Notes under the pieces: generated by a model
What the model was told of the DNA's origin: nothing
What the model saw: only the letters and a program-made list of their open reading frames with translations
Databases searched by the model: none
Part shown: one piece after another, positions 24,033 through 42,021 of the stretch
Numbering within the stretch: the first letter of the stretch is position 1
Layout: each line of letters starts with the position of its first letter
Program-made: the position numbers and the translations under genes
Assembly: GCF_024721305.1 (NCBI RefSeq)
Contig: NZ_JAMXOD010000007.1
Coordinates: 1 to 64,000 of the forward strand
Length of the DNA: 64,000 bases
DNA from: Aequitasia blattaphilus
Lineage (GTDB): Bacteria > Bacillota > Clostridia > Lachnospirales > Lachnospiraceae
Reading direction: 5' to 3'

Positions 24033-24323
24033 TTATATAATCAATGTATCTTCCATACTATATGTTTGTTTTGCTCCAAAGTGTTCCACCTTCGACTGGT
24101 ATTTATTTCCAAGATAGTAAAACCTTAAACTGTCACGTTCTAAATCTACTAACCCAACAAGGATCTCTTTTACTTCCCTACACTTTGCACTATCCATGAT
24201 ACACTCAAACACTGAATTCTGTACTCTCTGACCATAATTTTCACATTGCTTCGCAACTTTTCTCAGTCTTCGTTTTCCACTTTCTGTTTCTGTATTCACA
24301 TCATATGTAATTAAAACCAGCAT
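24033..24323 (-). CDS. cas2: CRISPR-associated endonuclease Cas2 (type I-C)
   Basis: A 96-residue Cas2 starting MLVLITYDVNTET, with the ferredoxin-like fold, the conserved Asp in the first strand (TYDV), Arg/Lys-rich helix RRLRKVAKQCENYG, and QNSVFECIMD. Cas2 forms the Cas1-Cas2 integrase that inserts new spacers. The ATG at 24323 is chosen over a longer reading because an AGGTG site precedes it and all Cas2 proteins begin at this strand. It lies 7 bases behind cas1 and directly before the leader of array 1. Confidence 0.95.
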   Translation of the reverse strand: MLVLITYDVNTETESGKRRLRKVAKQCENYGQRVQNSVFECIMDSAKCREVKEILVGLVDLERDSLRFYYLGNKYQSKVEHFGAKQTYSMEDTLII

Positions 24324-24330
24324 TTTGCAC

Positions 24331-25362
24331 CTACTTCCATAAGAATACCGGATATTCATCTAAATCTCCACGTATATACCTTGCCAATAATAATGCTTGT
24401 ACATAAGGAACCAATCCCCACTCAATTTTTTCTTCCAAAAAAGGGTGCACCAACACTTCCTTCTTTCGATTCCACCACGCAGTCAAAATTGTTTTTCTTC
24501 CCTCATCAGTCATGAGTACTGCTTCATTCTCTTTTTTGATAAAATCTTTTTCACTGACCATTCTTTTATTAATCAATGATAACACAAATCGATCTACCAA
24601 TACAGATCTAACTTCTTCCATCAGATCTAAAGCCAGAGAGTTTCTTCCTGGTCTAGCTTGATGCATAAATCCTAAATAGGGATCCAATCCTACTGTTGAT
24701 AGAGCCGATGCGCACTCATTAGCCAGAATAGAATACATAAATGATAACATAGCATTAACATTATCTAGTGGCGGGCGTCTATTACGCTGATGAAAGAAAA
24801 ACATCTCTTTATTTTGCAATATTAATTCATCAAAAACCGAAAAATATTGACTGGCTGCATTCCCCTCAACACCAACAATTTGCTCTATTTTATCACAGTC
24901 CCTTAGCTGCAAAATTGAGTTATCCAGACTCAAAGTAACTGCTTTTATGGATTCCACATCAACCTGCATAGAATGGTCTCTTGTTGCTCTCTCCAATACC
25001 CATTTACTATTATATATCTTTCCAACAATCATATTCCGTGCGATTTTCACACTCTTTCCTTCATCATCCGCAATTCGATACTGCTCTCTGCGCAGAAAAA
25101 TATTTCCTTTCATTTCTCCACAAACGCTAGCTAAATATTTTCCGCTCCTAGACAAAAAGACCAATGCAATATTTCGACTTGCACATGCCCCCATTAATGC
25201 TGGTGAAGCTCCTGCATGGCCACAAGTAACAATCCCCTCCAGATTATGCAATGGAAATCGAGCTACAGTACTCCCTTCTTCCCGTACTGCCAACGTTTCC
25301 CCTTCTAAGGCCAAATATTTATCTTCTGATAAAACATATAAAGTGTTTAATAATTTTCTCAT
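24331..25362 (-). CDS. cas1: CRISPR-associated integrase Cas1 (type I-C)
   Basis: A 343-residue Cas1. It begins MRKLLNTLYVLS, typical of I-C Cas1. The metal-binding catalytic residues are visible as Glu in GVEGNAASQYF near 161, His in LGFMHQARPGR near 229 and Glu/Asp in ALDLMEEVRSVLVDRF near 242-252. It integrates spacers together with Cas2 and Cas4. A start at TTG 25404 directly behind the cas4 stop is possible and has AAGGAG within it, but the ATG at 25362 gives the family-typical N-terminus; the ribosome site for it is poor. Confidence 0.95.
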   Translation of the reverse strand: MRKLLNTLYVLSEDKYLALEGETLAVREEGSTVARFPLHNLEGIVTCGHAGASPALMGACASRNIALVFLSRSGKYLASVCGEMKGNIFLRREQYRIADDEGKSVKIARNMIVGKIYNSKWVLERATRDHSMQVDVESIKAVTLSLDNSILQLRDCDKIEQIVGVEGNAASQYFSVFDELILQNKEMFFFHQRNRRPPLDNVNAMLSFMYSILANECASALSTVGLDPYLGFMHQARPGRNSLALDLMEEVRSVLVDRFVLSLINKRMVSEKDFIKKENEAVLMTDEGRKTILTAWWNRKKEVLVHPFLEEKIEWGLVPYVQALLLARYIRGDLDEYPVFLWK

Positions 25363-25404
25363 ATAGTTTTTTGTTGCATTTATGTCTACAACATCTCCTT
25401 GCAA

Positions 25405-26076
25405 TTATTCTTCGGATACCTTGTCCCAAATATATTTGCTTACATTTCTATTTTTTAACAATTTAGGTACACATAAATTGTTGAGGGAGCACGCATTACA
25501 TGCCTTAGACCACTTAACTTTTGGCGTATGTTTATTTTCAAACATGCGATGCATGTCTTCAACAATTCTATGAATTTCATTTCGCTCTTCTGTTGTTATT
25601 GCTACTTTTTCACGCCGTTTTGTCGTTCCATAATATAAGTATCCATAATCAATCTGAGTCGATAACATTTCTTCTAGACAAAGAACTTGCGCAATTAATT
25701 GCATTCTATCCTCATTCCCTGATTTCGATTCTCCCTTTTTATATTCAACGGGAATGACCCCAAATTTCCCTTCTTTTCCAAAAAGCATAATCGAATTGTC
25801 CCCCAAATCATCCCGAACGAACTCAACCACATCACAAACTCCTGTGATACCTAAATGCTTTGAAAAAACACGCATCTCTCTAGAAATTATTTTATCACCC
25901 CTAGTTTCTAGTGTAGGACCATCATGAGCACGATCATGCATTATGTTTCCTTCTACTGTGCGCAAATTGTCCTCCCATTGATGTTCAAGATGAATCAATG
26001 CCCATTGACGTTTGCAAAATACATAATGTTGTATTCCTGAGATCATTAAATAATCTTCCTCTTTATATTCCTTCAT
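25405..26076 (-). CDS. cas4: CRISPR-associated exonuclease Cas4 (type I-C)
   Basis: A 223-residue RecB-type nuclease. It begins EEDYLMISGIQHYVFCKRQWAL, with the first iron-sulphur Cys in FCKRQWA; the nuclease motif lies around EYKKGESKSG (Glu and Lys) and the remaining cluster Cys are in CNACSLNNLC near residue 195. Cas4 trims pre-spacers and reads the PAM so that spacers enter in the right direction. It overlaps cas7 by 14 bases. Confidence 0.95.
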   Translation of the reverse strand: MKEYKEEDYLMISGIQHYVFCKRQWALIHLEHQWEDNLRTVEGNIMHDRAHDGPTLETRGDKIISREMRVFSKHLGITGVCDVVEFVRDDLGDNSIMLFGKEGKFGVIPVEYKKGESKSGNEDRMQLIAQVLCLEEMLSTQIDYGYLYYGTTKRREKVAITTEERNEIHRIVEDMHRMFENKHTPKVKWSKACNACSLNNLCVPKLLKNRNVSKYIWDKVSEE

Positions 26077-26929
26077 ACACCTCAGCTTTTAGCCCCTCCA
26101 TTTCTTCTACAGAAATGCGATAGTCCTCCATACTCTTAGGAACAATAATATCCTCATTAATCAATTCAACCTTGACGCTGTCATGCACTTTTTTCGTTGA
26201 ATATTGTCCTATCTTGTTATTGTGTTTCCACCAATACAATTTCTCAACTGCCATACTTCCATCTGGTCTGGCTGCAGAGGCATCGTTTACAAATAATGTT
26301 CTCACTGCTTCTTTTATCTTCTCTGCATCTTCGTCTGTAAATCCTGTTTTTTCTGCCAGCTGAACATTGATACTTCCCTTCAGAAGGTATACCCCAAAAT
26401 CAACTCTGTGTTTCATTCCCATTGTATCAGAAGCTTTTCCACCTTTTGTATCTTCACTGTTTACACTCTTGGTAATCTGAATTGATGTAATGTCGATAGG
26501 GCTAACGCTGAATGCGGGATGAACAGATACTGGTCCTCTTACACCAAGAGATAGCTCTGAGCCTTTAAAGGCAAACACTTGTCCAAAACTTCTGACATCC
26601 ATCCATTCTTCACATGCCACCTTATGTCCTAAATCTATATCGGCCTTTTTCCCTTTGCTCAGAACTTCTTTAAAGTTAGTATTTCCTTCTGCACGATTCT
26701 TTAGGCTGTTATATTCATCCACTTTCTTATCATCAGATTGAACAAAAATATTTTCTCCCATATCCATTAAACGGTTTCTGATTTTTCTTTTAATGCATAC
26801 ATCAGAAATTTCTCCATGTCCATCGTAAGTTGTTCTTGGCATATTTCCATTTAATGGGTCACCATTTGAATTTGCATTATTAACTGTGATAATTGCCACA
26901 AAATCCATCTTATTACTCAATACGCTCAT
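26063..26929 (-). CDS. cas7: Cascade backbone protein Cas7c (Csd2)
   Basis: A 288-residue Cas7 of type I-C. It begins with FVAIITVNNANSNGDPLNGN (the RAMP first strand and loop), with the usual DVCIKRKIRNRL near 42 and FGVYLLKGSINVQLA near 173. Several copies line the crRNA spacer in the Cascade complex. It is 2 bases behind cas8c and overlaps cas4. Confidence 0.96.
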   Translation of the reverse strand: MSVLSNKMDFVAIITVNNANSNGDPLNGNMPRTTYDGHGEISDVCIKRKIRNRLMDMGENIFVQSDDKKVDEYNSLKNRAEGNTNFKEVLSKGKKADIDLGHKVACEEWMDVRSFGQVFAFKGSELSLGVRGPVSVHPAFSVSPIDITSIQITKSVNSEDTKGGKASDTMGMKHRVDFGVYLLKGSINVQLAEKTGFTDEDAEKIKEAVRTLFVNDASAARPDGSMAVEKLYWWKHNNKIGQYSTKKVHDSVKVELINEDIIVPKSMEDYRISVEEMEGLKAEVYEGI

Positions 26930-26931
26930 TA

Positions 26932-27345
26932 TTAATCCTCCTCTTCTTTCGCTTCGTTTGCTTCTTTTTCTGCTTTTAGTTCAATTGCTCTATTAATGAT
27001 GGCAGTTCTCTGACTGTCAAATCCCAACACAAAATTCCCATCTAAGTTTGTTGCTTTTTTCAGCTCTTGATCATCAATCTTTAGAGATACCTCACCTAAT
27101 AAATAGTATAAGTAATTTCCCTTCGTGCCTAGTTGCTCTTGATACGGTATTAATTTGGACCGGATATACTTCCATGTATCTGATGGTTGACTTGTGAATC
27201 TTGTAAAATACCGCATTGCATTGGTAGAACGGATTGAAGCATTTTCACCTGCTTTTTCCCTTAACGCCCAACTTTCAATTGCATCTGCTATTGCTAGCAA
27301 TCGTCCACAATTGTATGAAATATCGTTGCTTTCCATAATATCCAT
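26932..27345 (-). CDS. cas11: Cas11c small subunit, internal start within cas8c
   Basis: Within cas8c, in the same frame, an ATG at 27345 follows a very strong ribosome site, AAGGAGGAGGAGA (27351-27363), which has no reason to be there for the full-length protein. It would give a 137-residue, helix-rich protein starting MDIMESNDISYN and ending with the acidic cas8c tail. In type I-C systems the small subunit Cas11c is known to be made from exactly such an internal start in the last part of cas8c. The position, size and helical content all agree. A second ATG three codons later could also serve. Confidence 0.8.
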   Translation of the reverse strand: MDIMESNDISYNCGRLLAIADAIESWALREKAGENASIRSTNAMRYFTRFTSQPSDTWKYIRSKLIPYQEQLGTKGNYLYYLLGEVSLKIDDQELKKATNLDGNFVLGFDSQRTAIINRAIELKAEKEANEAKEEED

Positions 27346-28833
27346 AATAATCTCCTCCTCCTTATAATCGTATAAATACTTATTGTATAAAGCACAAAAT
27401 GTCGCTACGATATTTAGCCATAAATTTAGGTTACTATAGTTTTGTGGATGCTTAGCTTTATTGAAAACAGTATCCACAATATCCTTTGGGATTTTTCTTC
27501 CATCACATATACACGGCAATATTCTTTCTACCGTTTGTGCAAAGACCTTATCATTTCCCTTTAAAAATCCACCTTGATCTGTGCCAAACGCCGCTTTTGC
27601 AATATTGATTGGTGCCGGTGCCCCAAAGTATGGTATATATCGTCCTTCATCATTTTTAAAGAAAAAATTCCAACAACATGTTTTATGCCATTTTTCTATA
27701 TTGCTAATTAACTCACTGCCCTGCTGACCTACATATTCACGTTGAAAAACAATAGACAATCGCCCTGTAGTAGCAGCATCTACACCTAAAATCACAAAAT
27801 GACTATCGTCTGCAATCAGCTTCTTATATCCCAGTATTGCTTTATTAAAATGTTCCGCAAAAGTCTTCTTTGTCGTAACTTCATTTTTCTGAACACCTAG
27901 TAATTCTGCTGTGCTACCGAATAAATCCGGCATATCTTCATTTTTTGTACTCCAAAGTACAAAGACCTTATCTCCTAAGCGAACCCCTTGATTTCGAATA
28001 AGCCATTTCAAAGCATTATGAACCTTCTGCGAGGCCTCATATCCTATCATATATGCTTCCTGAGCATTTTTAAATCGACCTCTAAAAGTAAAATTCGATG
28101 TATCATTTGCGGAAATCATCTTGGCCTTATCTCCACTATGTCTGATTTTGGAAGGGTGATTATTGCATCCTCTTCCCTCTTTCCCAGTCACATAGCACAG
28201 TTGGTTATTTCCACCTTTATGTAAATAGTATTGGCTATACTTATCTTGCAATTCTTCATCCTGCCACAGAGCATCCAACTTTCCTGTTCCCAAAACTCGA
28301 AATCTTACAAAGGCATCTTTTTGTTCTCCTGCGGTAAGCTTATATCCTTCTGCATTATTCCACTTTTTTGTTAGAATTCCCGAGTCATCTAAGGAGAATA
28401 TACCGCTACTAGCTATATCTTCAATAAGAGTTCCTTTTCTCAAATATTTATACAATGCATTTATTCTCTCATCTGTATACTGAGACTCACTCCAATTTCT
28501 TAACTGCTCTAGATATGCTTGATAATATTTTTCATTATCTTCATCGCAATATTTTTGATAGTCACCTGCAATGTACTTCAATTTATCAAACAATGGATGA
28601 GGTTCAACTCCTGAGCTTCTGCTTGAAGACCCCTCCGTTACTGGTATAACTGTTTCAGCATGCTCCTTGTCAACAAAGGATGCTCCTTTAAATGTAGCCA
28701 AACTGTCCAACACTATTTCAATGTGAGCCTGTTGAGTAGAATGTCCTATCTTTAGCAGTCCCTCGTGTGAAAAGATCTTATCTGACTTTTCCAACTTATT
28801 ATACGTATCATACAAGGCATACATCCAACTCAT
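26932..28833 (-). CDS. cas8c: Cascade large subunit Cas8c (Csd1)
   Basis: A 633-residue type I-C large subunit, the normal size. Family features are the N-terminal LYDTYNKLEKSD, the motif CYVTGKEGRGCNNHPSKI near 222 (with paired Cys), TSNFTFRGRF near 254 and FVLWSTKNEDMPDLFG near 300. It recognises the PAM and recruits Cas3. The C-terminal 137 residues are also made separately as Cas11c. It overlaps cas5c by 4 bases. Confidence 0.96.
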   Translation of the reverse strand: MSWMYALYDTYNKLEKSDKIFSHEGLLKIGHSTQQAHIEIVLDSLATFKGASFVDKEHAETVIPVTEGSSSRSSGVEPHPLFDKLKYIAGDYQKYCDEDNEKYYQAYLEQLRNWSESQYTDERINALYKYLRKGTLIEDIASSGIFSLDDSGILTKKWNNAEGYKLTAGEQKDAFVRFRVLGTGKLDALWQDEELQDKYSQYYLHKGGNNQLCYVTGKEGRGCNNHPSKIRHSGDKAKMISANDTSNFTFRGRFKNAQEAYMIGYEASQKVHNALKWLIRNQGVRLGDKVFVLWSTKNEDMPDLFGSTAELLGVQKNEVTTKKTFAEHFNKAILGYKKLIADDSHFVILGVDAATTGRLSIVFQREYVGQQGSELISNIEKWHKTCCWNFFFKNDEGRYIPYFGAPAPINIAKAAFGTDQGGFLKGNDKVFAQTVERILPCICDGRKIPKDIVDTVFNKAKHPQNYSNLNLWLNIVATFCALYNKYLYDYKEEEIIMDIMESNDISYNCGRLLAIADAIESWALREKAGENASIRSTNAMRYFTRFTSQPSDTWKYIRSKLIPYQEQLGTKGNYLYYLLGEVSLKIDDQELKKATNLDGNFVLGFDSQRTAIINRAIELKAEKEANEAKEEED

Positions 28834-29528
28834 TCAAGCACCTCCTTTTCAACAAAGGTAAGTTGATCCCTCGTAAAATTCTTTATGTTCATAGATCTTA
28901 TCGTCCTTCTGACTGGGCATTCCTCTTGTTTGCAAAACTTTATAATTCCTTTTTCCATTTTGGGATACCAAAACAGTGCCTCTAATTCCTCTTTCCCACT
29001 TTGGTCTGGATACAGAAATGAATGAAATACAAGTCCAAATTCCATATCTGGAGTATTTTCGTAACAACTTGTTTCTTCTTCTATAATCTCTTCAACATAT
29101 CCCTGGCATTCTCTTACTCCAAGAAATATATCCCGTCGACCGCCACGCTTAATTGATCTCTTTGCTATTTGAAAATGCTTATCTTCCTGAAAATCCTGTC
29201 GCAAATCTTGTCGAAATTCATTAAATTCAAAATGAGCCTTGACTTCATAAGCCACATCCGCCAAATAGGTATAAAAACTCAGGTCATTTCCTCCATCGTA
29301 TTTAATCGGACGTATTCCCTTACTCTCTGTTCTAATTGGATTTAAAATCTTCACTTCATCAATCCGCCATTTAATTGTAGGTTTCCAATACACGGAAGAG
29401 GTTACACCAATTAGTGCTTCTGCTGTAGGCACTACCATTGTTGATTTTTCTCCCCCTATTTTCGTCATTGGATCAGTAAAAAGTGCATACCTTCCACTCA
29501 CCTTATAGGTGATTTGATTCTTTTTCAT
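28830..29528 (-). CDS. cas5: crRNA-processing Cas5c (Csd5)
   Basis: A 232-residue RAMP protein. YKVSGRYALFTDPMTKIGGE near 9-28 is the Cas5c first strand; VVPTAEALIGVTSSVYWKP follows near 33; IKRGGRRDIFLGVRECQGYV near 130-150 is the family core. In type I-C it replaces Cas6, cutting the repeat hairpin and staying on the crRNA 5' handle. It lies 12 bases behind cas3. A separate Cas6 is present in the type III operon, so two repeat-cutting enzymes are encoded here for the same repeat. Confidence 0.95.
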   Translation of the reverse strand: MKKNQITYKVSGRYALFTDPMTKIGGEKSTMVVPTAEALIGVTSSVYWKPTIKWRIDEVKILNPIRTESKGIRPIKYDGGNDLSFYTYLADVAYEVKAHFEFNEFRQDLRQDFQEDKHFQIAKRSIKRGGRRDIFLGVRECQGYVEEIIEEETSCYENTPDMEFGLVFHSFLYPDQSGKEELEALFWYPKMEKGIIKFCKQEECPVRRTIRSMNIKNFTRDQLTFVEKEVLE

Positions 29529-29540
29529 TACTTCCTCCTT

Positions 29541-31940
29541 TCAGCATATGTAATTGTCCGCCGAGGCTTCATAAATAACACCTAGCTCATCGTCATAATA
29601 ACCATTTGAAAGCACATATACCCCCATACTTTCATAAAATAAAATTGCACCTACCTCATTTAACATTTCAAATGCATACGTATATAAATTAACAGTATAT
29701 CTTTTTGCCTTAGATAACAATTTCTTTTTTTCTTCCAGTGACATATACAAATTTCCTTCCGTAATTTGCGTAATTAGATTTTGACCGTCTTTATACGGAA
29801 CAATAATTGACTTGGTACTGCTGTCTATTACCTCAAACTCTTTTGATGCTGACGCAAACTGTATTGGAAAACACATAGGAAAAGATGGATTTTCTTCATC
29901 TGCCCTATATCCTTCTCTATTTGAAGCACTGCTCATATCTAACAGCTTGTATATATTGGCAGCCTTCGTTGGATAATCAAATTTCTGATAGATTTCTCCA
30001 TCACTATAATAGTTTTTAAAATATTCTTGCATAGCTTCAGGCATAAGAGTATCCTCAAATCTCTCCAGAATATCAATGCTCTTGATTCCTCCAATTGATA
30101 TTTCCTGCAACTTAGAATAAGAACCTTCCTCATAATTAATAACGTAGCAATATCCTAATTCCTTCTCGCCATTTCTATTGATACGTCCCGCTGTTTGAGC
30201 TATAGAATCTAATTTGGTTATATTCCTTATACCCGCTTCAAAACTAATATCAATGCCCGCTTCAATTACCGTTGTACTGATACAGATTAGAGCTTCTTTC
30301 TTTCCTAATCCTTCTTTGACTTTTTCTAAAATGTCTTTCTTATGCTCTGGAGACAAACTGGAACTAAGATAAAAAACTTTCGTTGATTGAGCTATTTTTA
30401 ATTTGATCTCCGCAAATATTTTTTTTGCGGAATTTACTTTGTTGACTACCACCAGCAGATTATTCACTGTCTGCTTTTTTTCTAAAATAAAATCTACAGT
30501 TTCCTCTAAAGTATATGGTTTTACCCTGCACTTATTCACTACATCTACACGTTTTAATGATGTGAATTTTTCCTGAACATCCCCCATAATTTCCACAATG
30601 TCATTCTTACTCATTTCCTGAAGATAGGGTGAATCATTACCTGGCTGTGTGGCTGTGCATAAAACTACAGTTGTATTTAATATCTCCGAGAGAAAACAAA
30701 TTGCTCTTCGAAATAAATTCATACAATAAATAGGGATTGTCTGAACCTCATCAAAAACAATAATCGAATTCGCCATTGCATGGATTCGCCGCATATCTTG
30801 TGAACTGCGTCCATAGAATGAATTCAGAAACTGCACTACTGTCGTCACCACCAAATCATTTTCCCATCTTATAATCAGCTCACTATAATTATCTTGTTTA
30901 TCTTCGTCAATAACATTTGAATGATGTTCCAGCAAATCACATTCATTCCCTAATGCCTTTCGAAACACTTCAGCATTTTGTTCAATTATTGATGTGTAAG
31001 GCATCACGTAGATAATTCGTTCTTTATCATTACGAAGTGCATGTTCTAATGCAAATCGAATACTTGCCAAGGTCTTTCCACCCCCAGTTGGCACAGTAAG
31101 ACTATAGACACCTGTAAATCCTTTCCCTTTGTATAAACATTCATCTGAAATGACAGTTCTTATGTTATTAACCTTTGTTTTATTATTACTTAATTGCTTA
31201 ACATATATTTCTAAATTTTGCTGATAGTTTTTTAATGCTTTTTTACATTCTCCATTTTGAACATATTGTTTCCATGCACAATCATTAATCTCAAAACACA
31301 TACTGTCTAATCTGTCGGCATCAATAAGCATGCTATACAGTAGCTTTATCAGTAAATTGTAGATAAATCCATCTTTTTGCAGCGTTGCTATATCCTGGAT
31401 TTTTTTTATGATTTCTTGTGTCGCTTCCTTAAAAAGCCTTTCTATATCTTCGTCTATGGTGTCTGTAAACTGTTTTACCACCCTCTCAAACTCTTCCGCA
31501 TTTACTTTCTTCATTCTTTCTAAAATACTAACCTTGCCATTTACATTTAAACAGTCTGGTATTTTCCCATGATGATAACAACAAATCGTTGCCAGCAGTT
31601 CTGCCGTTATCTTTTCATATCCTTCGTTCTTTCCATATTTTTCGAAAATAAATTTCGCTCCATAAACACCGTGGTCAGATCCTTTTTCACTATCTCTTTC
31701 GATTTCTCTCTCTTGCAATTTTCCCTTTATATAGATAGAAAATTCTTCACTAAATTTCCCCATGTCATGAAGCAAACCCGCTAGATACATAAACTTCTCC
31801 ACACTAACACGCCTGCCAAAACTGCCCGCAAGTGTAGCCACTTCAACAAGATGATTCCGTAATGGTTGGATTATTATCGTCTTATTATTATCATGTTCAT
31901 CTATAACAAACCTTGCAATAAATTCATTTTTATCTGCCAT
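29541..31940 (-). CDS. cas3: CRISPR helicase-nuclease Cas3 (type I-C)
   Basis: A 799-residue Cas3. The N-terminal HD nuclease shows AGLLHDMGKFSEEF near 49, DHGVYGAKFIF near 86 and CCYHHGKIPD near 115. The SF2 helicase has Walker A VPTGGGKTLASI near 284, IVFDEVQTIP near 396 (DEAD-box equivalent), TATQPG near 432 and motif VI TAGRINRNGE near 595. It unwinds and degrades target DNA after Cascade binding. The ATG follows GAGGTG. It is the first gene of the seven-gene I-C operon and starts just past the distal end of array 2. Confidence 0.97.
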   Translation of the reverse strand: MADKNEFIARFVIDEHDNNKTIIIQPLRNHLVEVATLAGSFGRRVSVEKFMYLAGLLHDMGKFSEEFSIYIKGKLQEREIERDSEKGSDHGVYGAKFIFEKYGKNEGYEKITAELLATICCYHHGKIPDCLNVNGKVSILERMKKVNAEEFERVVKQFTDTIDEDIERLFKEATQEIIKKIQDIATLQKDGFIYNLLIKLLYSMLIDADRLDSMCFEINDCAWKQYVQNGECKKALKNYQQNLEIYVKQLSNNKTKVNNIRTVISDECLYKGKGFTGVYSLTVPTGGGKTLASIRFALEHALRNDKERIIYVMPYTSIIEQNAEVFRKALGNECDLLEHHSNVIDEDKQDNYSELIIRWENDLVVTTVVQFLNSFYGRSSQDMRRIHAMANSIIVFDEVQTIPIYCMNLFRRAICFLSEILNTTVVLCTATQPGNDSPYLQEMSKNDIVEIMGDVQEKFTSLKRVDVVNKCRVKPYTLEETVDFILEKKQTVNNLLVVVNKVNSAKKIFAEIKLKIAQSTKVFYLSSSLSPEHKKDILEKVKEGLGKKEALICISTTVIEAGIDISFEAGIRNITKLDSIAQTAGRINRNGEKELGYCYVINYEEGSYSKLQEISIGGIKSIDILERFEDTLMPEAMQEYFKNYYSDGEIYQKFDYPTKAANIYKLLDMSSASNREGYRADEENPSFPMCFPIQFASASKEFEVIDSSTKSIIVPYKDGQNLITQITEGNLYMSLEEKKKLLSKAKRYTVNLYTYAFEMLNEVGAILFYESMGVYVLSNGYYDDELGVIYEASADNYIC

Positions 31941-32055: not shown

Positions 32056-34501
32056 TTGCTTTCCAAATCTTCTCCTTCAAGGAGCGACTATTTGTAAACC
32101 AGTCTAACATTGCTTGTTGATTATTTCAATCTACGCTCCTCATTTGAGGAACGACAGGATGCTAGTCGAACTACTTTCTGCAATTTCAATTTCAATCCAC
32201 GTCCCTCATTCGAGGAACGACAGCCTTGCAATTACCAAAGATGGTAAAGGCTATGATTTCAATCCACGTCCCTCATTCGAGGAACGACATTGCCGATGCA
32301 CAATAATCCCTGTGACGGATGAGATTTCAATCCACGTCCCTCATTCGAGGAACGACTTCTTACCAATACCAAGGTCATAATCTCTAATACGATTTCAATC
32401 CACGTCCCTCATTCGAGGAACGACAAAATCGATTCATTGATGCCGCATACTATCGGAATTTCAATCCACGTCCCTCATTCGAGGAACGACAATAGTGGTA
32501 CAAGTACAGCACACATTTTAATAATTTCAATCCACGTCCCTCATTCGAGGAACGACAACATAATCTTTGCTTATAGATTGCTCAGTGCTAAATTTCAATC
32601 CACGTCCCTCATTCGAGGAACGACAGTTTTGAGTTATGGAAAGCCGGATAAAAATAGTATTTCAATCCACGTCCCTCATTCGAGGAACGACCTCTGGCTT
32701 CATGTATGCGATAATATCAACCAAATATTTCAATCCACGTCCCTCATTCGAGGAACGACTAATTTCATCGATGGAATGGCTCAAAATTCCGAATTTCAAT
32801 CCACGTCCCTCATTCGAGGAACGACTCTCCTTCTCCCATCATGTCGCACCACTCTGTAATTTCAATCCACGTCCCTCATTCGAGGAACGACCGTGTCGGA
32901 CATGCAGACAGTAAAGTGACAAGAATTTCAATCCACGTCCCTCATTCGAGGAACGACAGTATTGGACAATTCGTTCCCCAAATCTTCAGATATTTCAATC
33001 CACGTCCCTCATTCGAGGAACGACGTAGGTTTAAATATTACCATCGATGTCGTATATGGATTTCAATCCACGTCCCTCATTCGAGGAACGACCTTGGTTC
33101 GTCTGCTCCGGGCGTTACGCTATGCTTTATTTCAATCCACGTCCCTCATTCGAGGAACGACACCAACATTGATATATTGTATCGTCTCAATCTTAATTTC
33201 AATCCACGTCCCTCATTCGAGGAACGACGGATATGGATGTAGACAATTGCCCTATGTGGAAAATTTCAATCCACGTCCCTCATTCGAGGAACGACAATAA
33301 AGAGTTTGCAAATGATAATAATTTAGTTAATTTCAATCCACGTCCCTCATTCGAGGAACGACAGCCATCCCGACGGCGTCCGAATCCATATATCAATTTC
33401 AATCCACGTCCCTCATTCGAGGAACGACTATTTTGTGCGTGATAATAATTTGTTGTATGGATTCATTTCAATCCACGTCCCTCATTCGAGGAACGACGAC
33501 TTCTTGACCATGCTCAATTTGTGGATATGACTATTTCAATCCACGTCCCTCATTCGAGGAACGACCGTTGATTTTCGATATGATATACCCCATATCTTAT
33601 TTCAATCCACGTCCCTCATTCGAGGAACGACATATTCCATCACTCATATTAAATATAAACGTATTATTTCAATCCACGTCCCTCATTCGAGGAACGACCT
33701 ATACCAGCTAAAAAATCAGAGGTGACATATTATTTCAATCCACGTCCCTCATTCGAGGAACGACGAGAGCCTTTGTAGACTATGGCAGCAGGAATACATT
33801 TCAATCCACGTCCCTCATTCGAGGAACGACAAAACTTCTAATGCAATTGCTGATGTTGTAATAATTTCAATCCACGTCCCTCATTCGAGGAACGACATAG
33901 CAAACATCTTCCCAACGTCATATAATTCTTATTTCAATCCACGTCCCTCATTCGAGGAACGACATATAAGGCATTTCGCAAAAGTGTACTATTCATGATT
34001 TCAATCCACGTCCCTCATTCGAGGAACGACTTGTCGGAAAAATAGAATATCAAGAGCAGAAAGGAATTTCAATCCACGTCCCTCATTCGAGGAACGACAA
34101 TCAAGTACGCTTTAACTAACAAATCTGAGCGGATTTCAATCCACGTCCCTCATTCGAGGAACGACGGCAGTGCTAAATGAACTACCAGCTTTGGAACGGG
34201 ATTTCAATCCACGTCCCTCATTCGAGGAACGACGGTGTTGACATCACGCCATTAAAGGCGTATAATACATTTCAATCCACGTCCCTCATTCGAGGAACGA
34301 CTCTTGGTACCAGACACGGGAAGCAATACAAAAAGATTTCAATCCACGTCCCTCATTCGAGGAACGACCTCACTTCCCGTCATTTTTACATGCTTATTAT
34401 TATTTCAATCCACGTCCCTCATTCGAGGAACGACAGTTATCAACGAAGATGCGTAACCGACTTTATGAATTTCAATCCACGTCCCTCATTCGAGGAACGA
34501 C
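32056..34501 (-). CRISPR. CRISPR array 2, 36 repeats plus one decayed repeat
   Basis: Thirty-six 33-base repeats from 32123 to 34501, nearly all identical to array 1, with spacers of about 33-36 bases. The leftmost (32123) has four or five changes (CTACGCTCC, CATTTGAGG) and a still more decayed copy (32056-32088, ending GGAGCGAC) sits one 34-base spacer further left. The decay marks the old, leader-distal end next to cas3; the leader is on the right next to the type III csm5 gene. With no adaptation genes of its own nearby, it presumably relies on the I-C Cas1-Cas2-Cas4. Confidence 0.98.
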
Positions 34502-34657
34502 CGCAATATTTAGTCAAAAAAACTAATATCGCCCTGCATTTTGTATATCTAAAATAGACAAAAAAGGTTTTTTCAAATATACTTTTTATTTACGATGATA
34601 TATGTGACTTTTTCAGTGCGAGTCTCCATGTAATTTTTGCATACTAGAGACTCGCAC
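34502..34657 (-). promoter_or_regulatory. Leader of array 2 with perfect inverted repeat
   Basis: The first bases next to the repeat (CGCAATATTTAGT) match the leader of array 1. GTGCGAGTCTC (34616-34626) and GAGACTCGCAC (34647-34657) form a perfect 11-base inverted repeat enclosing TTGCATAC, starting 114 bases from the repeat. Confidence 0.78.
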
Positions 34658-34755: not shown

Positions 34756-35523
34756 TCAATATATTTCTATTTTTACAAATCCATGTGGACAAGATGTAAT
34801 CGGATCAATATAAAGTGCCGATGCGATCTCCTTTTCGTTAATGTCCCCATCTATTTTTAATGAATGTAAAAATCCTTTATATCCTCCCATGATTATTACA
34901 TTTTCTTTTCTTTGAAAATTTTTTAGGGCTGCAATAACACTGTCTACTCCATTTAGAAATTCTCTATTCTTATCTTCTTCAACTGTCTTTAATGAGTTCA
35001 AATACAGAATCATTTGTTTAATTTTTTCTTGCGTCAATATACTCGCATTTTTAAGAACTTCATACATCCTTTCCTTTGTATCCGCAAAAATAGTTCCTTG
35101 AAAACCTTCGTCTTCCTTAATCATTTCAATACCCAACCCATCAAAATAATAATCCCATTTTGGTGTAGACTCTTGAATTCCCTGCGCCTTGAAAAGATTT
35201 CTCAACTCAATATATTCATTCTCTATTTTTATATCATCTACCATGATAAACTCTCCATGCTCTTTCTGCATAGAGCAAAGTGCACCTTTAATTGACGAAC
35301 CCGGCAAATAATACTCTGCATGTTTGGGATCATATTTATCATATTCACCATATTGATAAAAAGGGTATATTATATTGGGTGTATTAGGAAGACGCTTTTC
35401 ATCAAGACTAACACGAACATCTTCTTCCGAATAAGCTCCTAGGGTCTCGTACCAGGCCATAGTATTTCTTGGCGATACAATCAAACTAGATAGTGTCTGT
35501 AATTTATATGTGATTTTCTCCAT
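34756..35523 (-). CDS. csm5: Type III RAMP protein, Csm5-like
   Basis: A 255-residue RAMP protein, short for Csm5 (usually 350 or more). It has the Csm5-type motif EYYLPGSSIKGALCSM near 70, a later glycine loop IMGGYKGFLHSLK near 212 and ends with CPHGFVKIEIY. In type III-A, Csm5 caps the 3' end of the crRNA and recruits trimming nucleases. It is the last gene of the operon, 1 base behind csm4, and is followed by the leader of array 2. The last codons recur at 44121-44185, showing a second, lost copy of the locus. Confidence 0.75.
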   Translation of the reverse strand: MEKITYKLQTLSSLIVSPRNTMAWYETLGAYSEEDVRVSLDEKRLPNTPNIIYPFYQYGEYDKYDPKHAEYYLPGSSIKGALCSMQKEHGEFIMVDDIKIENEYIELRNLFKAQGIQESTPKWDYYFDGLGIEMIKEDEGFQGTIFADTKERMYEVLKNASILTQEKIKQMILYLNSLKTVEEDKNREFLNGVDSVIAALKNFQRKENVIIMGGYKGFLHSLKIDGDINEKEIASALYIDPITSCPHGFVKIEIY

Positions 35524-35524
35524 C

Positions 35525-36499
35525 TTATACCTCCCCCCTGTTCAGTTTTATTGGCCACAAATAAGCGTTACCAAAAACAATATCTCTGTCCGGATTAGAA
35601 GGTGATTCTACGCATTTCCCCGCCACTTTAATGCCTTCTGAGATAGCAATAATACTACCTTCCGATACAAAGCTAATGTAATTAACCATTCTCTGTTTTG
35701 AATTCCACCTATTCTCAATATTAAAAGAACATCTTTCCGATGTAAATAACTCTAATGCCGAATCTGTAAACGATATTTTGTCAGGAAGCAGCATTCCCAT
35801 ATTAAGATACATGTTTCCTTTGCTATCTCCTTCTTTTTCTTTATGAAACCCCTGGATTTCATATGTATTCATTCCTTGTGAGGCACGTTTTCCTAAAATC
35901 ATTATATTATTCATTTCAGACTGTCTCTTTAGCAGCTTGACTAGCTTTTCTGTCTGTTCATTTTCTTCCACTTGCATATAAAAGCAGAATTTTTTGACAG
36001 GCGTTTCTTGTGTAACTGTACCATTCTTTTTTACCTCAATCACTTCTGTAACCGGCACTGAATACAATTTACTTTCCAATTCTGGCATATCATATCGAAT
36101 GCTATCAATTGATGCTCGAAGTTGCTGCCATGTGTCAAACCTTACGTAAGACATTACTTCATCCACTTGTTTCTTACTATTTAATATACTCCCTATGTCC
36201 TCTTTTTTAATATACTTCACACGTTTTATCAATTTGTAGTTTTTCTTGTTTTGCAAATCTAGTTTTTGATTTTGTTCTATTAGATATGCTTGAGGTAAAG
36301 GTACATAACCATAGGGAATAACATTAGATAAGGAAAAATGTATATTCTTTTCTTTGATTGCTTTAACCATTTGTGTTGCCTCTCTACTACCATACTCCTC
36401 TGCAAACATATAAATTAAGGCACCAAAAACCTTTTGTGAATCAGGAAGCTGTGTAATTGCACCTGTTGACATAAGTTCTACAAGATAAGTATTTATCAT
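35525..36499 (-). CDS. csm4: Type III RAMP protein, Csm4-like (Cas5 group)
   Basis: A 324-residue RAMP protein. The N-terminus AITQLPDSQKVFGALIYMFAEEYG corresponds to the Csm4 first helix (usual form SDTLFGAL), followed by YGYVPLPQAYL near 65; the late MILGKRASQGMNTYEI near 198 is the glycine-rich RAMP loop and GNAYLWPIKLN closes the protein. Csm4 holds the crRNA 5' handle and binds Cas10. It overlaps csm3 by 4 bases (ATGA). Confidence 0.75.
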   Translation of the reverse strand: MINTYLVELMSTGAITQLPDSQKVFGALIYMFAEEYGSREATQMVKAIKEKNIHFSLSNVIPYGYVPLPQAYLIEQNQKLDLQNKKNYKLIKRVKYIKKEDIGSILNSKKQVDEVMSYVRFDTWQQLRASIDSIRYDMPELESKLYSVPVTEVIEVKKNGTVTQETPVKKFCFYMQVEENEQTEKLVKLLKRQSEMNNIMILGKRASQGMNTYEIQGFHKEKEGDSKGNMYLNMGMLLPDKISFTDSALELFTSERCSFNIENRWNSKQRMVNYISFVSEGSIIAISEGIKVAGKCVESPSNPDRDIVFGNAYLWPIKLNRGEV

Positions 36500-37209
36500 T
36501 CCATTCCCTCCTGTTCTTCGATTATCACCTCTATCCTTCCATAACCACGGCTTTTAGAATTTCCCAGCCGATATACACCCTCATTGAACTTTTTTAGATT
36601 CGCAATTATATTTTTTCTACAAATTTGATTTGCACTTTCAGAAAGGGATTCTATTTTATAGAATCGAATCATTCCTTCAAACTCCAGACCGCATCTTGCC
36701 ACTTTATACGTTCGTGGGTTCGACAATATCTTATTATCCTCATTCTTGATTTCGGCTTTCATGTCAATTGAAAAACATTGCTTTACATTTCGAAAATCAT
36801 TGCTTAATTTGAAATCATCAAATAGTAATTTGGGAGTATTATTAAAACCTTTCATTCCAAAAATATATTCTGAAAGCGGCATATCCTCATCTAAATATAT
36901 CTCATACCTCTGCTCTATTCTTTCTAGCTCTTCCTTCTCCACACTATTTCTGATTAAGGCAATATTATCCGTTTTCATTTTTTGTATGTAATCCCTATAC
37001 AATTTTGCAATCTTTTTTTCATTTTCACTTTGTTCTTGATGAACTATATTTCTGAATGCACCCTTTAGTGTGGATGCCGGAATGTACGGAAATCCCTCTT
37101 GATCCACTACTGTCGTTTGATCAATACCACCGATTTCAAACGCGGATGGCGCTCCTCCAATGTATAAATTTGACTGTAACCTGATTTTAATTCTTATGTT
37201 ATCGCTCAT
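36496..37209 (-). CDS. csm3: Type III backbone RNase, Csm3-like (Cas7 group)
   Basis: A 237-residue Cas7-like protein. LYIGGAPSAFEIGGIDQTTVVD runs from 15 to 36 (given in part: FEIGGIDQTTVV); Asp30 lines up with the catalytic Asp of Csm3 that cuts target RNA every six bases. YIPASTLKGAFRNI near 42 and the closing SKSRGYGRIEV near 218 are RAMP motifs. It should build the complex backbone with active RNA cleavage. It overlaps cas10 by 11 bases. Confidence 0.82.
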   Translation of the reverse strand: MSDNIRIKIRLQSNLYIGGAPSAFEIGGIDQTTVVDQEGFPYIPASTLKGAFRNIVHQEQSENEKKIAKLYRDYIQKMKTDNIALIRNSVEKEELERIEQRYEIYLDEDMPLSEYIFGMKGFNNTPKLLFDDFKLSNDFRNVKQCFSIDMKAEIKNEDNKILSNPRTYKVARCGLEFEGMIRFYKIESLSESANQICRKNIIANLKKFNEGVYRLGNSKSRGYGRIEVIIEEQEGME

Positions 37210-39250
37210 TTTTATTTCCCTCCTTCTTATTATTCCAAAAAGATTTATACTTTATTAACTTATCATTGTATTCATATATCAACATGATTGCATCAACAAA
37301 ATTTGCATCCCACTTTTTCATGCCATAGGTCAAAAATCCCTCTCTATCAAAATATAATTTATAGGGATTTTTCTCCTCCTCTTCTCCCTGACCATCTATT
37401 TCCTTTATGTCTTCTTCCTCTTCATTACTAATTTCTTTTACCTTTTCATCATTTTTCAATCCAATCATATATGCTGCTTTTTCAATTGAAACCTTCTCTA
37501 TTTTTCGTAAGTTAAAAAACATTGATTTATCAATTGATAAGCATTGCACATACTCTGACTTAATCTTTCTGGTTTTATTAAATGGCACTATTTTGACAAA
37601 AATCTCTACAAGCTCTTTTCCGTATTTTGGTATTAACAAATCATGTATATAATGAATAGGTTTCATGAATAATTCCTGTTGGATTTGTTTTTTATTCTCA
37701 CTTTTTAATTTTATCTTTGTTACTTTACTTTTTTGTATAAGTCCAAATCGTTCGTCAGAAAAAAGTAGCAACAAACGTAAATAACTTTCAAACTGTTGCT
37801 TTATTTTTTTATTGCCTAAATGAATTGTTCTCCCTTTTCTACTCCTTGCATCTCTCTTATAGATAAGCTTTATGATTTTCCACTTCAGTAATAACTCCGT
37901 TTCATATAATCTAGATTCATTGGTGTTTTGAATCTGCAAGTGATACATTAGCTGAATCATATATTCAAGATTATTAGCCACCTCTTCTTTTGTTATCTTC
38001 TGTAATAGACCATAGAAGAAACTGGTTGTCCCGATTTTATCCTTTGTCTCTTCATCTTGCCTTATCTTATCAATCAGATTTAGATCATCCACAAAAAATG
38101 ACCAGTTTAGGTTATTATCCATAATCCGATTGATTCCTTGCTTTTCTTCTGTTTTTTTCGGACCTAAAAGCTTTTTCTGCTTCTTCACCTGTTCTCGATT
38201 AATATCAAAAAATACGATTTTATTAATTGCGATCTTCATATCACAATTCGGTAAAATTTGACTTTCACATTTATCAAGCTCCGCTTGTTTTGCACACGCT
38301 AGTTGCTCTTCTACCATATCCAAATAGTACCGGATTGGCTCTTTATTAAATGTTATAGATACACCTACACTCATACTCAATTTTTGTTCTGGACTTACAT
38401 CTAATTTTTCGTTTATTCTTTCCATTATATCTCGACAAACATCAATTCCTCTAACCAGATTTGGCAGATATACAGCAAAAAACATATCATCACCTGCCAT
38501 ATACAATGGAAATACCCATTCTTTTTGATTCGATGGTGCATGTTCTTCCGCTACCTTATGTAAAAAATCTAGCGACACCCTTTCATTTAGGATAACACTT
38601 ATATCTTTATATCGCTTATATTTCGTTATCCCTTTAAACATATCTCCCATTCCATCTAAGTCCGCTTTTATAACTGCAATCCTAAAGCGTTTTTTCGCTT
38701 CTCCATCTTCACCTGATTCAGAATAGTATAAATCGTTAATTGTTCGTGAAAAATATGGAAATTCCCCTCTATCAACTTCTGACTCATTTGCTTTTTTCCC
38801 TTTTTTAAAAGCAAATAACTTATCGCTATTCTTTTCAATAACCTGACTGAATTCTCGATTGCTTTTTAATCGTTTTTTCGCTTCCTGAATTACGTTTATA
38901 TCTGTCATTTCATTTTTCTCAAAGTAAGTGAAACGGATTTTTTTCTTTCCTTGTGAGCTCTCATAATATTCTGCAAATAATTCATTTAGTTTTTTTTCAA
39001 TACTTTCTACCGAAATCTCACAACTAAATATGAACACTCCTGAGCAAGCTATCAAAATATCGGCTTCCTTAACTTCAAACTTCTCTTCAATTGCCTTATG
39101 AAAATCATTTGATATTTCCTGTGATGCACTCATAATCTGTTTTAGTGTTTTCTCTTCTGTCTGCTTCTCCTGTTCATGTCCTTGAATCACATCAAATAAA
39201 ACGGTCTGTACTTTATCAATTGATAATGCAACTATTTGTGTTTTCACCAT
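37199..39250 (-). CDS. cas10: Cas10/Csm1-like protein lacking the HD nuclease domain
   Basis: A 683-residue Cas10. The protein starts directly with the first palm domain (IVALSIDKVQTVLFDV at 6-21); the HD nuclease domain that usually comes first is absent. The second palm keeps KADLDGMGDMF (196-205) and AGDDMFFA (252-259), the GGDD-type active site, here AGDD, used to make cyclic oligoadenylate. The C-terminal part has a helical domain, a basic patch and an acidic Glu-rich loop near 625-640. Loss of HD means no Cas10 DNA cleavage; signal synthesis looks possible. It starts at TAATG overlapping the DUF6602 gene stop by one base. Confidence 0.85.
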   Translation of the reverse strand: MVKTQIVALSIDKVQTVLFDVIQGHEQEKQTEEKTLKQIMSASQEISNDFHKAIEEKFEVKEADILIACSGVFIFSCEISVESIEKKLNELFAEYYESSQGKKKIRFTYFEKNEMTDINVIQEAKKRLKSNREFSQVIEKNSDKLFAFKKGKKANESEVDRGEFPYFSRTINDLYYSESGEDGEAKKRFRIAVIKADLDGMGDMFKGITKYKRYKDISVILNERVSLDFLHKVAEEHAPSNQKEWVFPLYMAGDDMFFAVYLPNLVRGIDVCRDIMERINEKLDVSPEQKLSMSVGVSITFNKEPIRYYLDMVEEQLACAKQAELDKCESQILPNCDMKIAINKIVFFDINREQVKKQKKLLGPKKTEEKQGINRIMDNNLNWSFFVDDLNLIDKIRQDEETKDKIGTTSFFYGLLQKITKEEVANNLEYMIQLMYHLQIQNTNESRLYETELLLKWKIIKLIYKRDARSRKGRTIHLGNKKIKQQFESYLRLLLLFSDERFGLIQKSKVTKIKLKSENKKQIQQELFMKPIHYIHDLLIPKYGKELVEIFVKIVPFNKTRKIKSEYVQCLSIDKSMFFNLRKIEKVSIEKAAYMIGLKNDEKVKEISNEEEEDIKEIDGQGEEEEKNPYKLYFDREGFLTYGMKKWDANFVDAIMLIYEYNDKLIKYKSFWNNKKEGNKNER

Positions 39251-40206
39251 TATTTCTCCTCTCTACATTTATCATTAAACATTTCAGCATACGACTTATT
39301 CGGAAATAGGACAGGATTGTTTAAAATAACTAATAGCTGATTCAACTGTAAGTTAAAAGATAATAAACTTATAGGCTCTTTATTTTTGCCTTTATGAACT
39401 GTGTACTCATTCAGCTTTATATTTTGTAACACTTCTCCTTCGTCAATTTTCCCTTCATATGCTGCCTCATCTACATGGTTTAAGGATTTATACCAATCCT
39501 GAAGATTTTCAAACTCATTCGAAAAAGTTATTTTTAGTCTTCCTTTCTCTGCCTTTTTTCCTTCTATCTTTTTTTCTTTAATTGCTTGTATCGTGATGTC
39601 AAAATTCAAACATTCCCTCTCTGTTTTATTTTCACTTTTTATTTCATCTTCAATCTTTATTTTGTCCTCACTCAAATAACATAATATTCTTAACGGTCTT
39701 GTTGCTGTTTGTGTTGGCGTCGCTGCAAATCCATCCCCTGTGCGTACAATTTTCGCTGCCATTCGAGCACATGCCTTATTAGCAGTTTTTAATTCTTTGA
39801 TAGCCATTTCCCATTCCTGCAATACTTTTTTGTTCATAGAAGTACTCTTACACTCTACAACAACGGCTACCGCCTCTATTGGCAAAAACTTTAAATTTTT
39901 ATACCGAAATATATAAGGGGTAAAATTATTGTCAAAAATAGCCAAGTCTACCTCTTTCGACACCCGCCCTTTCGCATCAATGATAAAAACAGATTGCTCA
40001 ATTACAAACTTCTTAGGAATGATTTGTTCAAACATCTCTTTCCATATTCCCTCTCTATATGTACCTATTGTCGAGCCGTGTTCTACTTTAAAATAGAGTT
40101 CCTTCACTAATGCCTCAGCATTATCCTGATAATTATTTACAATATCTAATATAGTTTTCTTATCTAACTCTTTTTTATTATCTAACTCTTTTTTCTTTTC
40201 TGACAT
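39250..40206 (-). CDS. DUF6602 PD-(D/E)XK nuclease-like protein inside the type III operon
   Basis: A 318-residue protein. Residues 40-130 follow the DUF6602 pattern: EHGSTIGTYREGIWKEMF (42-59), FIIDAKGRVSKEVDLAIFD (74-92) and AVVVECKSTSM (114-124). Glu52, Asp87 and Glu118-X-Lys120 make a full PD-(D/E)XK nuclease set. The C-terminal 190 residues are unrecognised; no CARF domain or membrane segment is evident. AGGAGG precedes the ATG at 40206. It lies 14 bases behind cas6 and shares TAATG with cas10, so it is a core member of the operon. It may supply the DNase lost with the Cas10 HD domain, or act as a signal-controlled effector; both are inference. Confidence 0.75.
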   Translation of the reverse strand: MSEKKKELDNKKELDKKTILDIVNNYQDNAEALVKELYFKVEHGSTIGTYREGIWKEMFEQIIPKKFVIEQSVFIIDAKGRVSKEVDLAIFDNNFTPYIFRYKNLKFLPIEAVAVVVECKSTSMNKKVLQEWEMAIKELKTANKACARMAAKIVRTGDGFAATPTQTATRPLRILCYLSEDKIKIEDEIKSENKTERECLNFDITIQAIKEKKIEGKKAEKGRLKITFSNEFENLQDWYKSLNHVDEAAYEGKIDEGEVLQNIKLNEYTVHKGKNKEPISLLSFNLQLNQLLVILNNPVLFPNKSYAEMFNDKCREEK

Positions 40207-40220
40207 TTTTCTTCCTCCTC

Positions 40221-41102
40221 TTATAAAAATTCCACTTCGATTTTTCCCATCCCAAAAGTTGTATTTCTCCCAATGTGAATAGTTTGTGCTGCATATATCC
40301 ATGGAACAAAATCATCTAATTTTCCCTCAAACTCAATCATGCCTTGTAAACCACTAAAGTCCATTTTTTGATTCAATCGGTTTGAATATCTGTTCATTTC
40401 CTTTAGACGAATTTCCTTCTCTGATATCAATACATCTTTTGCAAGGTTATTCACTCGAATCATTTCGCTTTCATCTATTGTTCCCCCATAACGTCTCGTA
40501 AGTGTCTCTATTCTACTCGTTATATTTCTAATAATTGTTGGGAAATCAATATCTAAAAGTAGTTTTCCACCTCTCCGAATTCTGAGAGGTGTTTGTAAAT
40601 ATAATCTCGCCTTTTTCACATGTTTCAAATGTAAGCATGGCAATGATACGCTTTTGGCAGCTAGTTCAATGTATTGTCTGTCTTGCCATATTATTCTTTG
40701 TGAACACGGCTGTATAACTTTATCTAACGTAAATTTATATCTTGAGACACCCAAGCCATATAAATCGATTTTTTCTAGTGCCTCTATCAATTCTTTCATA
40801 TACTTTTTTGCATCACCAAATAGCCTGATTTCAAAAAACAACTGTTCTCCTCTTTTGTACTTAGTTCTTTCTTCTTGACTCGGAACAATAATATAAGGAT
40901 TAACAATATCTTGCTTATTATCACTTAATTTACGATTTTGATAAATATATTGATATGCTTCTTGGTTTTGATATAGCGCTTGTCCAATGACACCTCTAAT
41001 AGTAGAACCAAGGTATTCTGGCAAAGTAGCATTTTCCATCGCTACCAAACATACTCTGATGGGTATATATTTCAATTCAAAAATATTTTTGTATGTGTTC
41101 AA
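40221..41102 (-). CDS. cas6: CRISPR RNA endoribonuclease Cas6
   Basis: A 293-residue RAMP protein of the PF10040 Cas6 type. LPEYLGSTIRGVIGQALY near 27 is the N-terminal ferredoxin-fold helix, FEIRLFGDAKKYM near 86, GLGVSRYKF near 110, and the C-terminal AAQTIHIGRNTTFGMGKIEV carries the glycine-rich loop. The start is set at TTG 41102, because AAGGAGAGGTG lies just upstream; the longer ATG reading (41150) runs through that site. It opens the type III operon. The nearby array has the I-C repeat, so whether this Cas6 or Cas5c cuts it is open. Confidence 0.85.
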   Translation of the reverse strand: MNTYKNIFELKYIPIRVCLVAMENATLPEYLGSTIRGVIGQALYQNQEAYQYIYQNRKLSDNKQDIVNPYIIVPSQEERTKYKRGEQLFFEIRLFGDAKKYMKELIEALEKIDLYGLGVSRYKFTLDKVIQPCSQRIIWQDRQYIELAAKSVSLPCLHLKHVKKARLYLQTPLRIRRGGKLLLDIDFPTIIRNITSRIETLTRRYGGTIDESEMIRVNNLAKDVLISEKEIRLKEMNRYSNRLNQKMDFSGLQGMIEFEGKLDDFVPWIYAAQTIHIGRNTTFGMGKIEVEFL

Positions 41103-42018: not shown

Positions 42019-42021
42019 TCT

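Follow-up and report, generated by a model that had tools for sequence, protein, structure and literature searches.

A III-A2 CRISPR operon of Aequitasia blattaphilus with a long NucC homolog ahead of Cas10

The described systems closest to the locus analyzed here, a six-gene type III CRISPR (clustered regularly interspaced short palindromic repeats) operon of Aequitasia blattaphilus, are the III-A2 variant and several defense systems that use the nuclease NucC. The operon lies at 34756..41102, on the minus strand, of a stretch of 64,000 nucleotides (nt) (contig NZ_JAMXOD010000007.1, positions 1 to 64,000), which we call the window. The III-A2 variant (Makarova et al., November 2025, PMC12669027) "lacks an identifiable Cas11", and has a Cas10 that makes cyclic oligoadenylate (cOA), a catalytic Cas7 and, in some cases, NucC. 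NucC is present in 35 of 1113 type III loci (PMC11229360). In Vibrio metoecus, the III-B complex VmeCmr, with an HD-less Cas10, makes cyclic tri-adenylate (cA3) and so fires NucC, a cA3-activated DNase (PMC8682760). Interference by a Serratia type III-A system, in which the HD domain of Cas10 is degenerate, needs both cOA synthesis and NucC (PMC13060164, preprint).

The A. blattaphilus locus is a new member of the known but little-studied III-A2 variant, matched by its gene set to the published description. The two share an active-palm Cas10 (here with a GDD motif), the absence of an identifiable Cas11 (here no Csm2), the catalytic Asp of Cas7 (here Asp30 of Csm3) and NucC as effector; in the features that the text of PMC12669027 describes, they show no difference. 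The original prediction, whose author knew of no subtype described with these exact genes, is superseded on this point, and the reading as a novel subtype is rejected. What this locus has of its own beside that text is the cas6 gene at its front and the adjoining I-C-like array. Measured against canonical III-A, it has the Csm3, Csm4 and Csm5 orthologs but neither a Csm2 gene nor an HD domain on Cas10.

The NucC-bearing systems differ from it in other ways. VmeCmr (PMC8682760) has the same combination of HD-less Cas10 and nucC, and the same proposed chain from target RNA to cA3 to NucC, but it is built from Cmr1-6 subunits, and its short NucC has Arg and Thr at two pocket positions discussed below. 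The Serratia system is likewise a Csm-type complex with NucC (PDB 7zgv) and a degenerate HD, but csm2 is present, the HD domain persists as a vestige, and the NucC is short (PMC13060164). The NucC of Escherichia coli MS115-1 (PDB 6p7o, 6p7p), from a cyclic oligonucleotide-based antiphage signaling system, is homologous over its full length and shares the PD-(D/E)XK residues, but it serves another sensor system, has 241 amino acids (aa) against 318 here, and differs in its pocket residues. Finally, fusions related to those of the III-D loci that join NucC to Cas10 (PMC11229360) fall in the same long NucC clade as the protein studied here, whereas the subunits of those loci are of III-D type.

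We consider it very probable that this locus is a type III-A2 effector module that would signal to NucC and confer immunity by abortive infection. As an intact, compact III-A2 locus with about twenty relatives, it also offers a natural exchange of effectors, NucC versus a Cap4-like SAVED nuclease, in a single slot.

Genes and catalytic motifs of the operon

The minus strand carries the six genes in the order cas6, nucC (first recognized as DUF6602), cas10, csm3, csm4 and csm5, separated from cas6 to csm5 by 14, -1, -11, -4 and +1 bases; coordinates, order and the tight spacing (no overlap or gap beyond 14 bases) are as originally predicted. The E-values of PADLOC (PDLC) models for the operon were taken on raw open reading frames (ORFs), with 3e-75 for NucC (PDLC01051) and 6e-14 for Cas10. 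The cas6 gene (40221..41102) matches PDLC01496 (Cas6, 8.9e-73) and PF10040 (2.7e-14); our preferred start is the TTG at 41102, but the ORF could open at a GTG at 41150. For nucC (39250..40206) the raw ORF opens at 40302, and the start is the ATG at 40206, which has AGGAGG upstream and gives the 318 aa with which the residue numbers of the original prediction agree. The cas10 gene (37199..39250, 683 aa) matches Cas10 models and the palm2 family PF22335 (3.5e-15), and the DUF6602 family PF20247 matches the nucC product at 2.1e-22. Then come csm3 (Cas7; 36496..37209, 237 aa; PDLC01442, 3.2e-24), csm4 (Cas5; 35525..36499, 324 aa; PDLC01494, 1.8e-15, and TIGR01903, 2.3e-14, slightly below its cut-off) and csm5 (34756..35523), whose product is short, as had been noted (255 aa), and belongs to the short group "Csm5gr7" (PDLC01115, 1.3e-64). 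While PADLOC models thus match the Csm3, Csm4 and Csm5 orthologs, the NCBIfam III-A equivalog models match them below their cut-offs, as would be expected of a diverged member. An Rfam scan gave nothing above threshold.

No HD domain is recognized in the window Cas10, where palm2 is the sole Pfam match up to an E-value of 0.1. Residue 121 aligns with position 457 of a 650-position Csm1 model, and residue 116 with position 313 of a 605-position Cas10 model; five other matching Cas10 models are offset by only about 20-90 positions, expected of models without an HD part. The single HD dipeptide stands at residue 536, and 3 of 21 aligned Cas10s have one within the first 200 residues. The catalytic motifs on which the original prediction relied are invariant: the palm GDD (residues 253-255) in 21/21 aligned Cas10s, and Asp30 in 20/20 aligned Csm3s.

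Judging from homology, the DUF6602 protein is a full-length homolog of NucC, an effector already known from type III systems; this identity had been overlooked. The PADLOC NucC model matches its residues 11-313 at 2.1e-75, and also matches every one of the 20 III-A2 proteins aligned (the window's and 19 relatives). Its significant PDB matches are solved NucCs, among them 6uxf, which scores 2e-12 when the sequence is searched singly and 2.2e-19 when the profile of all 20 is used. When the DUF6602 profile is aligned by hhalign with three short NucCs of other genomes, the probability is 99.4% over 233 columns, C-terminus included; the long NucC of III-A2 is lengthened in a variable stretch ahead of the C-terminal helix.

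To compare residues, we aligned 90 NucC rows (23 from III-A2 loci, 64 other long and 3 short), a set that omits ORFs of 200 aa or less, the duplicate-genome loci L013-L015, L017 and L018, and L016 (loci and genomes bear our own L and G numbers). The complete PD-(D/E)XK set claimed at the outset (Glu52, Asp87, Glu118 and Lys120) is present in the window protein. Equivalents of Glu52, Asp87 and Lys120 are kept in 23/23 III-A2 rows; position 118, in the ExK motif, is Glu in 18/23 and Gln in 5/23, and Gln in 42/64 of the other long rows. QxK is known from other PD-(D/E)XK families. The DUF6602 protein had been proposed to supply nuclease activity either as a subunit or as a cOA effector: the NucC identity, together with the Cap4-like swap described below, favors a PD-(D/E)XK DNase acting as a cOA effector over the structural role.

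Recurrence of the operon and exchange of its effector

A profile of seven NucCs searched against genome contigs found 95 relatives, of which 80 were kept; three loci present in duplicate were dropped (L013-L015, contigs of L046, L057 and L071). The order nucC-cas10-csm3-csm4 recurs in 20 other loci (L025 among them; two of the loci, L060 and L063, share a genome), and thus the arrangement goes beyond chance. An absence of DUF6602 next to HD-less cas10 elsewhere would have counted against the original prediction, but the pairing is confirmed in other genomes. Not all of them are perfect: csm5 is not recognized in L034, csm3 is split in L056, cas6 in L026, and both nucC and csm4 in L098. A separate gene between cas10 and csm3 was found in none of the 20. 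L027 and L032 are remnants. Most of the remaining NucC loci have III-B-like or III-D-like gene orders, labels that we assign by gene order and length, so that long NucCs occur with three type III gene orders. In a quick tree, with Shimodaira-Hasegawa-like approximate likelihood ratio (SH-aLRT) support only, a branch with full support sets apart the 86 long NucCs that the tree includes, and the III-A2 label needs four changes, of which well-supported branches force two; nucC has therefore probably moved between subtypes.

As this set had been seeded with NucC, we also surveyed with a Csm5 profile, which was positive in 4/392 genomes of the order and 6/398 of the family (the samples overlap). 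Counting the window's own, this yields nine III-A2 loci, spread over eight genomes. In 8/9 there is a nucC, which immediately precedes cas10 in 7 of them; G923 is the eighth, and there neither cas10 nor csm3 is recognized between nucC and csm4. The ninth, L118, has cas6 and cas10 separated instead by a protein of 505 aa (G155 contig 21, 12978-14495), which matches the SAVED domain (6e-28), Cap4 in the PDB (1.2e-62) and the PADLOC model SAVED_PDDEXK (3.4e-136). The L118 Cas10 has GDD, and its Csm3 retains the GGVDQ motif. Because a Cap4-like SAVED nuclease fills the same slot, NucC would be a second-messenger effector as opposed to a structural subunit. The G155 assembly (89% complete, 1% contamination) also carries a second III-A2 locus, with nucC, and the pairing of the two in one genome is possibly a binning error. 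Predicted SAVED-nuclease fusions are common (PMC9704534), and a search of the literature, in the parts of it available, found no paper naming a Cap4 in a type III locus, which is not proof of its absence from print.

A phylum-wide search with Cas10 was positive in 1/398 genomes, that of A. blattaphilus itself, and thus the variant is rare in this sample. Carriage by plasmids or phages was rejected, since tblastn at 1e-10 gave no Cas10 match among 72,556 records of plasmids and 50,697 of phages.

Proposed mechanism and its alternatives

In the III-A2 signaling reading, Cas6 would cut the transcript of the shared I-C-like array into CRISPR RNAs (crRNAs), and Csm3, Csm4, Csm5 and the HD-less Cas10 would assemble around a crRNA, with no Csm2 among the subunits. 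On binding a complementary phage transcript, Csm3 would cut the RNA, and the Cas10 palm, with its GDD, would make a cOA. This messenger, most likely cA3, would bind NucC trimers, which would pair into hexamers and cut double-stranded DNA, with abortive infection as the outcome.

Several points weigh against this reading. We found no small subunit for the III-A2 complex, and Csm2 together with domain 4 of Cas10 is said to sense target RNA in type III complexes (PMC13060164, preprint). Cap4s have also been reported with trinucleotides other than cA3 (PMC10419184). The nine-locus survey keeps some bias toward NucC because the Csm5 profile was derived from NucC-linked loci. The III-A2 Cas10 is, by sequence, far from the solved Cas10s: the single PDB match of the window Cas10 at an E-value up to 0.01 is the Cas10 sequence of 8s9t (0.0016), which we take to be a III-Dv Cas10. 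And the replacement of Arg53 by Lys and of Thr226 by Asn in the long NucC clade suggests that cA3 is not secured as the messenger.

How much does that replacement matter? We take Arg53, Tyr81 and Thr226 of E. coli NucC to be cA3 contacts; for Arg53 and Thr226 this role was reportedly described in a 2020 structure paper. The Arg53 equivalent is Lys in 87/87 long rows and Arg in 3/3 short NucCs, and the Thr226 equivalent is Asn in all 86 readable long rows and Thr in 3/3 short ones; Arg and Thr also occupy these positions in all five NucC sequences of the PDB. The window NucC has Lys66 and Asn297 at these positions, and the NucC of L016, outside the count, has the same pocket residues as the long rows. 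The change includes GTVP to NNPx. Arg53 and Thr226 are a mark of conservation, not a definition of the family, and the window NucC lacks both while sharing the full-length homology and the active site. Such changed pocket residues look new within a known frame, and they raise the question of whether every NucC answers cA3, as PMC11229360 assumes in grouping effectors by messenger.

A second set of loci bears on this pocket. Two NucC copies are present in five III-D-like loci (L073, L079, L083, L085 and L086). The stand-alone upstream copy is catalytically dead: the active-site Asp is Ser in 5/5, the Glu or Gln of ExK is Leu or Arg in 5/5, and the Lys is lost in 4/5, while equivalents of Lys66, Tyr95, Asn296 and Asn297 are kept in 5/5. 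The partner copy, with an intact active site, either is fused to Cas10 (L073, L085 and L086; fusions of 743-820 aa) or adjoins it (L079 and L083). The five dead copies form one clade on the NucC tree, so the loss is one event. In Virgibacillus pantothenticus a NucC-Cas10 fusion is described beside a stand-alone nucC (PMC11229360), and the available part of that paper, to which our literature search on this point was confined, makes no mention of dead copies. The pairing of an active NucC at Cas10 with a dead one looks new within a known frame. L052 and L060 also have two NucC copies, with the motif in all, the second L060 copy being cut short.

One could thus suppose that NucC here answers a messenger other than cA3, another cyclic oligoadenylate or nucleotide, in a rebuilt ligand pocket. 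The uniform Lys and Asn of the long rows against Arg and Thr elsewhere point that way, and so do the dead copies, which keep the pocket residues and lose the active site, as expected of residues for ligand or assembly (this counting as one event). On the other side, a Lys in place of Arg is a conservative change, and 85/87 long rows keep Tyr at the Tyr81 position (Phe in two, the window's included). The Cap4-like swap in L118 also points to a cyclic trinucleotide, Cap4 having been reported as cA3-responsive (PMC13187428). Altogether we find a different messenger unlikely. A broader proposal, which we offer very tentatively and regard as a little less probable still, is that the long NucC clade (III-A2, III-B-like and III-D-like, mostly of Bacillota) might have a rebuilt pocket with messenger or assembly unlike those of cA3-NucC, working with a Cas11-less complex in III-A2, and that the dead NucCs of some III-D-like loci might be regulatory, in mixed rings held at Cas10.

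The III-A2 signaling reading has the complex assemble without Csm2, as the original prediction also had it from the operon alone. The A. blattaphilus genome (97.5% complete, 60 contigs) has no match to Csm2 (PF03750) at an E-value up to 1, and none to Csx1-type CARF proteins. It gave no match to Csm6 either, although this is a weak test, the model staying below its cut-off in all control genomes too. One Cas10 palm is above cut-off, and there is a weaker match on another contig. Thus no csm2, csm6 or second over-cut-off cas10 that could feed the complex was found elsewhere, in a search that did not extend to stand-alone HD nucleases. Among the eight III-A2 genomes, Csm2 exceeds its cut-off in one (G058), where it belongs to another locus, of III-A type, that has a larger cas10 of its own, and stays below it in seven, with a weak match in one of them (G1042, 0.04); as a control, it is above cut-off in 15/295 genomes of the order.

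A small subunit could yet be hidden, either as an internal translation product of cas10 or as a Cas11 borrowed from the cas8c of the neighboring I-C operon. There is precedent in type I-B, where Cas11b arises by internal translation (PMC11899642), the I-C operon does adjoin the III operon, and 13/21 cas10 genes contain at least one internal start that is in frame and strongly matched to Shine-Dalgarno (duplex energy of -6 kcal/mol or lower, with 60-350 codons still to follow, counted with no shuffled control). The window cas10, however, has no such start, and in its relatives the starts coincide in at most 3 genes, near alignment columns 517-521 and 617-627. A Cas11 fused into Cas10 was rejected, since a Csm2 profile of 15 proteins shows no signal against the Cas10 profile (probability 0.1), nor does it against our profiles A3, A5, A6 and A7 (0.2, 0.3, 1.7 and 0.1). 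A conserved gene of its own was also rejected: clusters present in at least 3 III-A2 loci, judged from coordinates and sequence, overlap core genes in antisense or in another frame, derive from arrays, belong to type I cas genes, or are common unrelated genes. Borrowing is further disfavored by five relatives whose 30-nt repeats are of a different type and near which no I-C-like array is seen. Such a hidden product seems to us about as unlikely as a different messenger. Either the complex would work without a small subunit, or it would have one too diverged to detect; a Cas10-Csm complex that lacks one would let the need for Cas11 in type III target sensing be tested.

Could NucC reside in the Cas10-Csm complex as a subunit, or be tethered to it as a nuclease, and not be diffusible? 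Its tight placement between cas6 and cas10 and the III-D-like fusions of L073, L085 and L086 would fit, but its slot is held in L118 by a Cap4-like SAVED sensor-nuclease, long NucCs are spread over three type III gene orders, and V. metoecus NucC purifies alone as trimers and hexamers (PMC8682760), which makes residency quite improbable. That the operon is a decaying, functionless relic, as the csm5-tail relic and small second array nearby (a record of past duplication and loss) and the broken relatives L027, L032 and L098 might hint, is very improbable given six intact reading frames, retained catalytic motifs and a long neighboring array.

Arrays and neighboring genes

The III operon is separated from a type I-C operon (cas3-cas5c-cas8c-cas7c-cas4-cas1-cas2; 24033..31940, minus strand) by a CRISPR array of a 33-nt I-C-like repeat, GTCGTTCCTCGAATGAGGGACGTGGATTGAAAT (32123..34557, minus strand). 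The original prediction that cas1 and cas2 are missing holds within the III operon, but the nearest adaptation genes, cas1, cas2 and cas4, are only about 9-10 kb off in this adjoining system, with the array in between. A second array of the same repeat (22568-23873) is behind cas2; the two flank the I-C operon and appear to have one spacer in common (near 23550 and near 33500).

A window-type cas6 stands beside the operon in 8/9 III-A2 loci with the I-C-like repeat (the window, L024, L025, L027, L031, L040, L042 and L043, the exception being L034), and in 0/5 loci with a 30-nt repeat ending ATGTAAAT or ATGTAAAG (L046, L057, L060, L075 and L098); nine further III-A2 loci have no array in view. 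I-C systems process crRNA with Cas5, and so a III module that uses the same array as an I-C system would plausibly come with a Cas6 of its own. Judged by eye, L118 is similar to the 30-nt-repeat group; it carries a Cas6b-type protein instead, and thus a more distant cas6 may escape our profile.

A second III-A2 subgroup (L046, L056, L057, L060, L063, L068, L071 and L075) is without window-type cas6 and has 30-nt repeats wherever an array is in view. Its Csm4 has 382-467 aa in 7/8 (314 in L063), versus 308-355 in the window's subgroup.

Upstream of cas6 there is a five-repeat array of a diverged repeat (43592-43929), followed by a relic of the csm5 3′ end (44085-44179), 80% identical to 34720-34814. 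A 43-nt motif flanking the csm5 end is also repeated (34615-34657 and 44008-44050). Because of the relic, the motif and the small diverged array, the III locus and its array were probably once duplicated or recombined, with the second copy largely lost. Directly upstream of cas6, at 41365-43320, is an AAA ATPase and RloB-like pair (AbiLi/AbiLii in PADLOC), likely a second defense system of the same island.

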